Origin: Thermocrispum municipale DSM 44069
Lineage (GTDB): Bacteria; Actinomycetota; Actinomycetes; Mycobacteriales; Pseudonocardiaceae
Assembly: GCF_000427825.1 (NCBI RefSeq)
Contig: NZ_ATYT01000006.1
Location: 1-64,000, forward strand
Length of the DNA stretch: 64,000 nucleotides
Direction: 5' to 3'
The notes below the pieces were generated by a model. It searched no databases. It was given only the letters and a program-made list of their open reading frames with translations, and was not told where the DNA came from. Numbering within the stretch: the stretch's first letter is position 1; each line of letters begins with the position of its first letter. Below, in pieces: positions 3,108-5,967 of the stretch. The position numbers were made by a program, and so were the translations under genes.

Positions 3108-3893
3108 TCAGCCCAGCCGGTCCAGCCAGCCCGGTTCACTGACGTCGATGCGCCCGTCCGGGCCGATCACGGTCGGGGTGACGAACTCGGGGATTTCCTT
3201 GCGTGCGGTCGCGAACGACTGGTCCAGCTCACGGTGGTAGGTCCGCTTGGCGACGCAGTCGGCGAACTTCCCGCCCAGCCCCAGCTTGCTGCCCAGCTCG
3301 GTCAACTGACCCTTGTCCCAGCCGCGCTTGCCTTCCTCCGGTTGGTTGGCGAACAGGCTGTCGTGGAACGGGGTGAACTTGCCTTCGTCGGCCGCGCACA
3401 GCGCCGCGTTGGCCGCGTCCATCGAGTAGCCGGGCGGATCGGACGCCTCTACGAGCATCGGCACCATGTGCCGGCGGACCCGCAGCTCGCCTGCCTGCAC
3501 CCGATCGGCGATCTTCTTCCCGTCCCGCTCGTGGAACTGGCCGCACGCCGGACAAAGGAAATCGGCATAGATGTCGATGGTGATCGGCGCCTTCGCGTCC
3601 CCGACCACCACCACGGCGCCGTCGCGTGACTCGGGCACCTCGTCGCTGCGGACCACCGGGATCGCGCGGCCCTCGGTGGCGTTCTTGTCCGCGTAGTACC
3701 AGAGCGCAGCGAGAACGATCAGCGCGACGGCCGCCGCAACCGCGGTGATGGTCAAGGCGACTTTGCGAACTCGGGCTCGGTCGGGCTGGGGTGGTGCGCC
3801 GGTGGCGGACTTGCGTGTCCGAGTGGCTTGGGTCGCCCGCTGCGCGGCCAGCTCCCGCCGCCTGCGGCGTTCGGCTCGTTCGGCTCCGCCCAT
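3108..3893 (-). CDS. Membrane-anchored DsbA-like thioredoxin-fold protein
   Basis: This 261-aa protein has an Arg-rich cytoplasmic N-terminus (residues 1-44) and one transmembrane helix (about 45-67). An extracytoplasmic DsbA/thioredoxin_4 domain follows, with the active-site motif CPAC at residues 114-117. FVTPTVIGPDG near the C-terminus supplies the cis-proline loop (TP). The family catalyses thiol-disulphide exchange in secreted proteins in actinobacteria. The start at 3893 is preceded by AGGAG at a normal distance; an upstream ATG at 3983 lacks one and would overlap the divergent gene. No partner (VKOR/DsbB) lies next to it. Its preferred role, oxidase or isomerase, cannot be told from sequence. 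Confidence 0.88.
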   Translation of the reverse strand: MGGAERAERRRRRELAAQRATQATRTRKSATGAPPQPDRARVRKVALTITAVAAAVALIVLAALWYYADKNATEGRAIPVVRSDEVPESRDGAVVVVGDAKAPITIDIYADFLCPACGQFHERDGKKIADRVQAGELRVRRHMVPMLVEASDPPGYSMDAANAALCAADEGKFTPFHDSLFANQPEEGKRGWDKGQLTELGSKLGLGGKFADCVAKRTYHRELDQSFATARKEIPEFVTPTVIGPDGRIDVSEPGWLDRLG

Positions 3894-4025
3894 CGTCTTC
3901 GTTCGCTCCTGTCGATCGTGACCGACGTCGACATTCCTGCCGCCGTGGCACCCGAGATGCTCAGTAACCCGGTCGAGGCTCATCTAGGCTATGGGGCCGC
4001 GCGTGTGGGCTGTGTGGGAGGTGCA

Positions 4026-4856
4026 GTGCGGCGTTCCGGGGCGTTGGCGGCAGTGGCCGTGCTGATCTGCACGGCGCTGTCCGGTTGCACGCCCTCCGCT
4101 GCGGAGGACTCCGTGGTGACCAAGGCGGCGGACACCGGGACGCTGGTCATCGGCACGCGCTTCACCCAGCCAGGCCTGTCCGAACGCACGCTGGACGGCC
4201 GCTTCGTCGGCTTCGACATCGACGTGGGCCGGTTCGTCGCCGCCGAGCTCGGCGTGGACCCGGACGACATCACGTGGCGCGACGTGGTGGCCGCCGAGCG
4301 CGAGGAAGTGCTCACCTCGGGCGCGGTCGACATGGTGATCAGCACGTTCTCCATCACGGCGGAGCGCAAGAAGAACGTGCTGTTCGCCGGGCCGTACTTC
4401 GTCACCGGCCAGTCGCTCATGGTGCGGAAGAAGACCACCGACATCACCGGGCCGAGCTCGCTGGACGGCAAGAAGCTCTGCTCGGTGACCGGCACGACGT
4501 CGGCAGAGGAAGTCAAGGCGCGCTTCGCCAAGCGGGTCACATTGGTCGAGTACCCGCGCGAGCCGGACTGTGTGACCGCGCTGCTCGCCGGCCTGGTCGA
4601 CGCGGTCACCACCGATGAAGCGATCCTGGCCGGCTACGTCGCCGAGCACCCCGAGCTGCTGAAGATCGTCGGCAAGCAGTTCTCCGTCGAGCGCTACGGC
4701 ATCGGCCTGCCGAAGGGCGACGTCGACGGGCGGCGCGCGGTCAACGCCGCGCTGCAGGAGATGATCGACACCGGCGAGTGGCGGGCGTCGGTGCAGAAGC
4801 ACTTCGGCGGCAGCGGCATCCGTGTGTCCAACCCGCCGCCGATCACCGAGCGTTGA
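4026..4856 (+). CDS. Glutamate-type ABC transporter substrate-binding lipoprotein
   Basis: This 276-aa protein starts with a lipoprotein signal peptide: Arg-Arg, a hydrophobic core and the lipobox LSGC, with the lipidated Cys at residue 21. The rest is a family-3 periplasmic binding fold: TLVIGTRFTQPGLSER, DGRFVGFDIDVGRFVAAELG, VDMVISTFSITAERKK and VTGTTSAEEVK. It resembles GluB/GlnH-type amino-acid binding proteins. GTG 4026 was chosen for the GGGAGG at 4016-4021 and the -10-like TAGGCT at 3985-3990, which would give a leader of about 28 nt. No permease or ATPase gene adjoins it, so it is an orphan receptor here; it may serve a distant transporter or a sensor kinase. Its stop abuts that of the convergent gene. 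Confidence 0.87.
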   Translation: MRRSGALAAVAVLICTALSGCTPSAAEDSVVTKAADTGTLVIGTRFTQPGLSERTLDGRFVGFDIDVGRFVAAELGVDPDDITWRDVVAAEREEVLTSGAVDMVISTFSITAERKKNVLFAGPYFVTGQSLMVRKKTTDITGPSSLDGKKLCSVTGTTSAEEVKARFAKRVTLVEYPREPDCVTALLAGLVDAVTTDEAILAGYVAEHPELLKIVGKQFSVERYGIGLPKGDVDGRRAVNAALQEMIDTGEWRASVQKHFGGSGIRVSNPPPITER

Positions 4857-5681
4857 TCAGTCCGCGTTCTCCAGGCGGTTGAGCACGTCCTCCCGGATGC
4901 GCTGCTGGTTCTGCCTGACCACGTCGGTGACGAACTCGTCCACGCGCGGGTCGGCCAACACCTCGAGCACGACGCGCAGCGTCGTCTCGATCATGGCGCG
5001 CGTGATGCGATCGGAGAACGGCAGCATGGCCAGCCGCCCGGTGGTCGGATCCTCGTTGAGCTTCTCGACCACCAGCTGCTCGAGCTCGTCGGAGTTCTCC
5101 CGCAGTGCCGCGGCCAGGCCGAGCGGGATGTTGCCGGTCTCGACCACCTTGACCACTTCGTCGAGCACCATCAGAATCACCGGGCGCTTGATGGCCTCCA
5201 CCACCGGATCGGTGAGTTGATCGACCAACCGGTTGGTGAAGCGCTCGCCGAACACCCGGTAGACGAGCCGCGCGACCCGGACCGCGACGACGATGACCCG
5301 CAGCAGCCGGAAGCTGCGCACCGCCGGGTTGGCGATCGGGATCATCCCGATCACCTCGTACCAGTGGCTGAGCGGATACATCGGCTGCCAGCCGGTTTTG
5401 CGCCAGCGCCAGACGAACTCCACCGCGAAGATCGCGCAAATGGTCGTGTCGACCACGAACACCCAGGTGGCGCCGGCGTTGGTTCGGTCGATCACCGTGA
5501 CGTAGAGCAGCAGGCCGACGGACAGCACGGACAGCACGAGCATCGCGACGTCGACGAAGTCCAGCGGCCGTTCCCACACGGCTTGCGACCGCTTGCGCTT
5601 GTCCGCCGTGCGGGTCCGCCGGATCTTGGCTTCCTGCTCGTCGGCGGCCGTGGCCGCCGGATCGGACTCGGTGGCGGTCAT
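4857..5681 (-). CDS. Voltage-sensor-domain membrane protein without a pore (ion transporter family)
   Basis: This 274-aa protein has a charged N-terminus and then four helices matching a voltage-sensor domain: S1 about 41-63, S2 about 72-92 (FAVEFVWRWRK), S3 about 105-118 (WYEVIGMIPIANP) and S4 about 122-144. S4 has arginines at 122, 125, 128, 135, 138 and 142. The pattern follows the S2-S4 region of K+ channels. The usual S3 Asp appears as Glu, and there is no S5-pore-S6 and no TVGYG-like filter. The last 130 residues are predicted to be soluble and helical. Known pore-less sensors are proton channels or voltage-coupled enzymes; which applies here is unknown. The ATG at 5681 was chosen because the upstream extension is Pro/Arg-rich shadow sequence. 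Confidence 0.75.
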   Translation of the reverse strand: MTATESDPAATAADEQEAKIRRTRTADKRKRSQAVWERPLDFVDVAMLVLSVLSVGLLLYVTVIDRTNAGATWVFVVDTTICAIFAVEFVWRWRKTGWQPMYPLSHWYEVIGMIPIANPAVRSFRLLRVIVVAVRVARLVYRVFGERFTNRLVDQLTDPVVEAIKRPVILMVLDEVVKVVETGNIPLGLAAALRENSDELEQLVVEKLNEDPTTGRLAMLPFSDRITRAMIETTLRVVLEVLADPRVDEFVTDVVRQNQQRIREDVLNRLENAD

Positions 5682-5878
5682 GACGCAACCACTTCCGCCA
5701 GGCCGGTGCGGCGGTGACGCGTCGCGAGTGCACGGAGCGGCCGGTGTGTCATGAGCCACAGCCTATTGCCGCTTCGGTCGATCAGCGCGCAGAACGAACG
5801 GCCGGACGCGAGGTCCGAGGTGGGACTGGCGGGCCGGGCGAGGTGGTACGGACAGGCATGGTTCAGCGCCGGCATGAC

Positions 5879-5921
5879 AACGACCCGCCGCTGGGGGTGG
5901 GGGGAAAAGCGGCGGGTCGTT
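5879..5921 (-). terminator. Strong hairpin downstream of the gene at 5968-6903
   Basis: AACGACCCGCCGCT (5879-5892) and AGCGGCGGGTCGTT (5908-5921) form a perfect 14-bp stem with a 15-nt G-rich loop. It lies about 50 bp beyond the stop of the minus-strand gene. No T-tract follows, as is common for actinobacterial hairpins. Confidence 0.75.
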
Positions 5922-5967
5922 GGGGGTGGTGCGGGATGTTGGTCTGCGGTTGTGCGGGGACGCTCGG

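Follow-up and report, generated by a model that had tools for sequence, protein, structure and literature searches.

The window analysed here, the first 64,000 nucleotides of contig NZ_ATYT01000006.1 of Thermocrispum municipale DSM 44069, encodes on its minus strand a 274-residue protein with an S1-S4 region and a helical C-terminal domain (Table 1). The ORF begins with ATG at 5681, and its TGA stop directly adjoins the end of a convergent ORF; the gene convergent with it in the window codes for the SBP_bac_3 solute-binding protein. Upstream lies a perfect inverted repeat that possibly acts as a transcription barrier. A terminator scan that required a T run found no terminator. Given the repeat on one side and the convergent ORF on the other, co-transcription of the gene with its neighbours is doubtful.

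Table 1. Features of the sensor locus, in window coordinates
Feature	Positions	Strand	Basis
Thioredoxin_4 protein and SBP_bac_3 solute-binding protein, adjoining the sensor gene	3111-4856	- (Thioredoxin_4), + (SBP_bac_3)	
Pore-less voltage-sensor-domain protein P0001, 274 aa	4857..5681, including stop codon	-	ORF and translation; full-length homologues in two phyla
S1, residues 42-63	5493..5558	-	AlphaFold2 helix
S2, residues 68-95 (D78, F85, E88, R92)	5397..5480	-	AlphaFold2 helix; all four invariant, 39/39
S3, residues 102-114 (E109)	5340..5378	-	AlphaFold2 helices 102-105 and 107-111, end at 114 placed by eye; E109 39/39
S4, residues 119-144 (R122, R125, R128, R135, R138, R142)	5250..5327	-	AlphaFold2 helix
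C-terminal all-helical domain, residues 146-274	4860..5246	-	AlphaFold2
Perfect 15-bp inverted repeat, between the sensor gene and the next upstream minus-strand ORF	5878..5922	.	

To characterize the gene context, 18 other loci were compared, with T. agreste counted twice and three loci coming from other families. Relatives of the SBP_bac_3 neighbour are found in eight of the 18, relatives of the Thioredoxin_4 neighbour in eight, and both in six. In the list of gene clusters with at least five loci (45 entries at most), a generic dehydrogenase cluster of 11 loci spans both actinobacterial and gammaproteobacterial loci; the sole others listed that do so are frames of the sensor gene itself. 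The neighbour genes in the examined loci offered no functional hint.

Sequence and predicted fold of S1-S4

An earlier note, made from the sequence alone, had read the protein as four membrane helices with a six-arginine S4. Both features are borne out by the translation and by four AlphaFold2 helices. We aligned the window protein with 38 others that share 35-56% identity with it. Across these 39 members the four S2 residues in Table 1, the S3 glutamate and R122, R125, R128 and R135 of S4 are invariant, and the S4 RxxRxxR pattern and a charge-transfer centre (F85, E88, E109) occur in every member. These residues are the counterparts of those that form the charge-transfer centre and supply the gating arginines in Kv and Nav sensors. 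The S2/S3 sequence of the window protein reads DTTICAIFAVEFVWRWRK...HWYEVIGMIP. At the next two channel spacings of its S4, 131 and 134, there is valine, so the gating charge may be small. Ten members (L032, L037-L039, L042-L045, L049, L050), all gammaproteobacterial apart from one unassigned bin, carry three inserted residues in S4 with an additional in-register arginine, the equivalent of one more helical step.

The window protein alone falls below the Pfam threshold for Ion_trans (E 0.11, 12.1 bits against a cut-off of 25, residues 43-142), and the sensor claim therefore rests on the family. Ion_trans is matched at E 0.001 or better by 17 of the 39 members (best 8.9e-9) and at E 1 or better by 37. 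Over the sensor part, the family profile matches bacterial channels up to E 2.7e-16, in the TVGYGD-bearing L096. Searching the PDB with the profile gave the isolated KvAP sensor as top match, with KvAP chains at E 7.9e-4 to 3.6e-3. This search alone is marginal because a KCNQ4 fragment, which we take not to be a sensor, scores 0.003 alongside them. Positions 13-113 (of 254) of the profile phrog_7872 match residues 41-142 of the window protein at E 1.1e-7; many of its other matches lie over 137-220, which we read as its pore half, and some over nearly the whole profile. By sequence-profile homology the family carries a predicted voltage-sensor domain, and the S1-S4 domain of the protein is related to those of bacterial six-helix channels.

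Other searches with the window protein alone gave only hits that were set aside: a stray Kei1 match in Pfam (E 0.012), a uridine transporter as the only NCBIfam hit, far below that family's cut-off, and in a PDB phmmer search a KCNQ4 fragment (0.023) and a COP9 subunit (0.19). PADLOC returned no match for it.

The AlphaFold2 model (m6d034c2bff53), built from the 39-row alignment, has a mean pLDDT of 84.3 and a pTM of 0.52; at that pTM the relative placement of the sensor and C-terminal domains is unreliable. Besides the helices of S1-S4 there is an N-terminal one at 8-32, and the C-terminal part is modelled as helices 146-182, 185-195, 197-210, 212-219, 223-243 and 245-272. In VIA-align, S1-S4 superposes on the sensors of KvAP (Z 10.9, 116 residues, 4.2 A), Nav1.7 (Z 10.8), Ci-VSP (Z 10.4, 103 residues, 2.7 A) and NavAb/BacNav (5vb2_B, Z 9.3, 105 residues, 3.4 A), all below the Z of about 13 under which a score is possibly generic for helical bundles. 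All 50 matches listed are sensors or S1-S4-containing channels, TRP channels included. With the full model Foldseek found nothing at E < 0.001, the best match being NavAb at 6.3e-3. The earlier note had proposed such a comparison with voltage-sensor folds; since the four helices superpose on the KvAP and Ci-VSP sensors, packing of another kind is not seen, and S1-S4 is modelled as a four-helix sensor fold.

Absence of a pore and the C-terminal domain

To determine whether a pore follows S4, we took the Kyte-Doolittle hydropathy maximum after S4 (19-residue averaging). It lies at 0.75-1.78 in the 39 members, 1.23 in the window protein and above 1.6 in only one; the median for S1 in the family is 2.45. 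As controls we used 34 channels found by the same family profile in other genomes; a simple pattern assigns a K-filter or near-filter motif to 21 of them. Their maxima, 2.04-3.08, are all above those of the 39 family members. By hydropathy and by the AlphaFold2 helices, the S5-filter-S6 pore module of a voltage-gated channel with six transmembrane helices (6TM) is lacking, and the C-terminal 129 residues are modelled as helices only, without membrane-grade hydropathy. The soluble helical domain that the earlier note had placed after S4 agrees with this, and the outcome that it named as speaking against its reading, two C-terminal membrane helices with a re-entrant filter, was not seen.

Between S4 and the first C-terminal helix stands G145, a glycine in 38 of 39 members. 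Modelled alone, the C-terminal domain reaches a pLDDT of 82.9, and its helices are amphipathic, with hydrophobic moments of 0.57 (146-163), 0.54 (223-243) and 0.60 (245-266). Amphipathic helices of this kind would suit a protein without voltage function whose sensor-like fold serves as a structural anchor in the membrane or as a scaffold for lipids. TRP channels have sensor-like domains without voltage function, and the fold matches above include TRP chains. An anchor or scaffold would not, however, need its charge-transfer-centre residues and four S4 arginines to be the same in every one of 39 members drawn from two phyla, and we consider such a role unlikely.

A sensor fold followed by a further domain is also the architecture of Ci-VSP, the voltage-sensing phosphatase. 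The bacterial protein differs in that its C-terminal model is all-helical and not a phosphatase. The sole cysteine of the window protein is C82 in S2, so a CX5R motif is impossible in the C-terminal part, as the earlier note had observed. No phosphatase family is among the Pfam matches listed (those of the window protein and, for the C-terminal domains, 25 of 41 families).

The C-terminal domain was searched for in 60 genomes of relatives, with at most 67 candidates scored per genome, giving 16 intact loci and the T. agreste remnant described below. Apart from that remnant, it occurs without the sensor in none of the 60, and in the genomes searched the domain is inseparable from the sensor. 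Fold and profile searches gave no convincing relative in the PDB: Foldseek with the domain alone has no match with E < 1 (best 1.4), VIA-align reaches at best Z 7.1 at an rmsd of 12.5 A, and the sequence-profile search has nothing below E 0.69; failure to match a fold does not prove the fold new. The earlier note had also suggested a profile search for this domain. The window domain has no Pfam match, and AsnC_trans_reg_3 is matched by 17 of the 39 C-terminal domains at E 1 or better (best 2.8e-5) and by one of the 39 full proteins at 0.001 or better. We set this family aside because its alpha+beta barrel disagrees with an all-helical model. A duplication within the domain had looked plausible but was likewise dropped; hhalign gave it 57% probability over 31 columns.

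Distribution, selection and a second subfamily

To determine how common the gene is, we surveyed several genome collections. A search with the protein gave a match in 17 of 60 genomes, the organism's own and its relatives, counting a broken T. agreste copy. A pattern scan of a species-genome collection gave 29 loci, from the actinobacterial genera Nocardia, Nocardioides, Antrihabitans and Thermocrispum, from the gammaproteobacterial Solimonas, Nevskia, Sinimarinibacterium, Panacagrimonas, Fontimonas and others, and from one unassigned bin. The pore-less sensor family is thus conserved and present in both Actinomycetota and Gammaproteobacteria. A phage origin was considered and set aside, since at E 0.01 none of 50,697 phage records matched. 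In the larger searches that follow, the best 6 or 12 candidates were scored per genome, and the counts are lower bounds. Within the window's own taxonomic family (200 genomes), at least 80 match the family profile: 70 have a single near-full-length copy, four have a broken or cut one, and six match over the sensor part only, which we read from their coverage as ordinary channels. Across the phylum (396 genomes) at least 26 match: three, among them the window genome, near full length and the other 23 over the sensor part alone.

The whole-gene dN/dS is 0.10-0.30 in all seven close pairs compared, three of which share one sequence. It is lower in the C-terminal part (0.01-0.26) than in the sensor part (0.11-0.31) in each of the seven, with the cut point set by pattern. 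The sensor gene is under purifying selection. The T. agreste orthologue (L092, G001:C1:516296-516881, and L048) is a broken copy: its frame shifts near S1, and an internal stretch that starts just after S4 and reaches into the C-terminal domain is deleted. The window protein itself departs from near-invariant positions at Y141 (D in 36 of 39), I169 (T in 38), I185 (Y in 37) and G188 (N in 36). Because of these departures and the broken T. agreste copy, the gene seems under weaker constraint in Thermocrispum than elsewhere in the family.

In 398 Pseudomonadota genomes at least 56 match the profile. Two are of the window type (A) and near full length, one of them in the genome on which the search was centred; the remaining matches are channel sensors or proteins of another type, B. 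All 17 B loci taken, which were chosen by coverage and frame length, encode 334-368 residues, and further copies are found in the plasmid collection in Acinetobacter (6 records) and Halomonas (1). The B tail is not membrane-grade either, with a maximum of 1.23 in 19 proteins (the 17, one from Acinetobacter and one from Halomonas). In single profile-profile comparisons of A and B, the sensors match at 2.2e-16 and the C-terminal domains at 2.3e-7 (93.5% probability, 99 columns).

The tree built from 92 sensor domains separates the 34 channels from A (92/91), from B (99/98) and from A+B (89/88), each of which forms one group. Rebuilding it without the long-branched Acinetobacter B row gave 96/92, 100/99 and 89/82, respectively. 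We favour a single pore loss at the origin of A and B, and only favour it, because the sensor alignment is short (114-117 columns), the support for A+B lies under a strict threshold and all rows come from one query profile.

The Acinetobacter B protein is annotated as 'preprotein translocase subunit SecA' (L114:4935-5981; CP040048.1 404189-405235). The same label lies beneath the B match in CP035931.1, making two Acinetobacter records labelled in this way. The L114 gene sits between an acyltransferase gene and minCDE. A link of B to cell division was discarded, with minC/minD matches in none of the 18 other B loci.

The window genome has two tandem Ion_trans channels (L001/L002, G000:C13:154692-156194), encoded by open frames of 290 and 293 aa; they contain the stretch TGESWPD, which is similar to the filter of a bacterial Na channel. 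The family profile also found, in the set L054-L074, several Actinomycetota six-helix proteins (e.g. L055, L056, L058) in whose pore regions the pattern detects no canonical K filter; L055, for instance, has TTVSSELYPVTVGGR.

The tandem channels, and the homology of the sensor to those of bacterial channels, are in keeping with a regulatory role, in which the protein would associate as a subunit with pore-bearing channels and adjust how they respond to voltage. Against this, three of the eight gene-bearing genomes examined (one isolate, Fontimonas thermophila, and two bins) yield at E 0.001 no Ion_trans_2 match and, with the possible exception of the protein itself, no Ion_trans match, so the protein is not an obligate channel subunit. 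Nor is any conserved neighbour cluster among those listed recognised as a channel gene, the annotation not being systematic. We regard a subunit role as improbable, and as the sole role of the protein it is unlikely.

Known pore-less sensors and a proposed mechanism

Hv1 (VSOP) has a similar architecture, a pore-less S1-S4 with three RxxRxxR arginines and then a helical C-terminal part (PMC10377628). The earlier note had suggested a voltage-coupled or proton-conducting protein. Voltage coupling agrees with the invariance of the charge-transfer centre and of the S4 arginines; proton conduction is disfavoured. A voltage-gated channel conducting protons, or another small ion, through the sensor itself as Hv1 does would here lack the usual Hv signature. 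The bacterial S4 has a neutral residue three positions after the third arginine, as the S4 of Hv1 does. None of the 39 members, though, has D or E at S1 positions 45-60, and all 39 have S54 at what we take to be the position of the Hv1 selectivity aspartate. The tryptophan of RxWRxxR is absent from all 39, position 124 being F in 32 and L in 7. The S1 acid (D112 in Hv1) and this tryptophan are the identification marks of Hv proteins in PMC10377628. According to the same paper, a minimal filter requirement is a pore-facing carboxyl group in a narrow region, and neutralising Asp112 leads to anion permeability. Acids are present in S2 and S3 of the bacterial family, so the missing S1 acid is no proof against conduction. 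We nevertheless think proton conduction improbable; the C-terminal domain of about 130 residues is a further difference from Hv1.

TMEM266 (C15orf27) shares with the family an S1-S4 sensor, RXXRXXR, the S2 phenylalanine and glutamate, the S3 acid, the lack of a pore and a helical extension of S4. The features by which PMC6392501 characterizes it (pore-less sensor, RXXRXXR, charge-transfer centre) are all found in the bacterial family. It is restricted to vertebrates and closest to Hv1 according to PMC6392501, and non-conducting according to the 2023 review (PMC10377628). The present family, by contrast, is bacterial, its best PDB profile match is the archaeal Kv channel KvAP, and its C-terminal domain is folded in the model and conserved, whereas that of TMEM266 is largely disordered. 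KvAP and bacterial 6TM K channels (Ion_trans) have a homologous sensor profile and a like fold, but the family has a helical non-membrane domain in place of their S5, filter and S6. Similarly, the sensor superposes on that of BacNav (NavAb), and the pore module is absent.

Stand-alone voltage sensors are known from eukaryotes; what is new is a bacterial family with an unrecognised output domain. According to the 2023 review (PMC10377628), voltage sensors of prokaryotes are always accompanied by a pore; a conserved pore-less family in two phyla contradicts this. We found no report of a bacterial pore-less voltage sensor in the open-licence literature; subscription papers or preprints may hold one.

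The pore-less voltage-sensor domain proposed in the earlier note is upheld, at the level of sequence and model, by family conservation with its conserved electrostatics, by the profile and fold comparisons that establish sensor homology and predicted fold, and by the hydropathy control for the pore. We think it probable, if by no means certain, that the protein is a stand-alone bacterial voltage sensor, comparable to TMEM266 of vertebrates, in which S4 would drive a presumably cytoplasmic helical domain in place of a pore. On depolarisation, S4 would be freed to move through the F85/E88/E109 charge-transfer centre, with R122, R125 and R128 (RxxRxxR) as gating arginines and R135 below them. The amphipathic helix 146-163, which stands at the place of the channel S4-S5 linker, would relay this movement to the C-terminal domain. 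That domain might then switch oligomeric state, or bind differently to a partner or the membrane surface, giving an output by protein or membrane contact. With no recognised fold or motif in the domain, this output step, whether an oligomer switch, partner binding or membrane contact, is unsupported and a guess.

A broader reading would make A and B a widespread, dedicated bacterial class of non-channel proteins that reads the membrane potential directly through a Kv-type sensor and, in a new helical domain, converts it to a conformational signal. This class would have arisen by a single pore loss, split into the short A and the long B, and serve both Actinomycetota and Gammaproteobacteria; for this whole reading we hold the case for and against to be evenly balanced. 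The pore-less family would show that stand-alone voltage sensors are not solely a eukaryotic invention, and it supplies small sensors for biophysics and for voltage indicators. Whether the bacterial membrane potential is a direct protein signal or an energy store only would now be testable.
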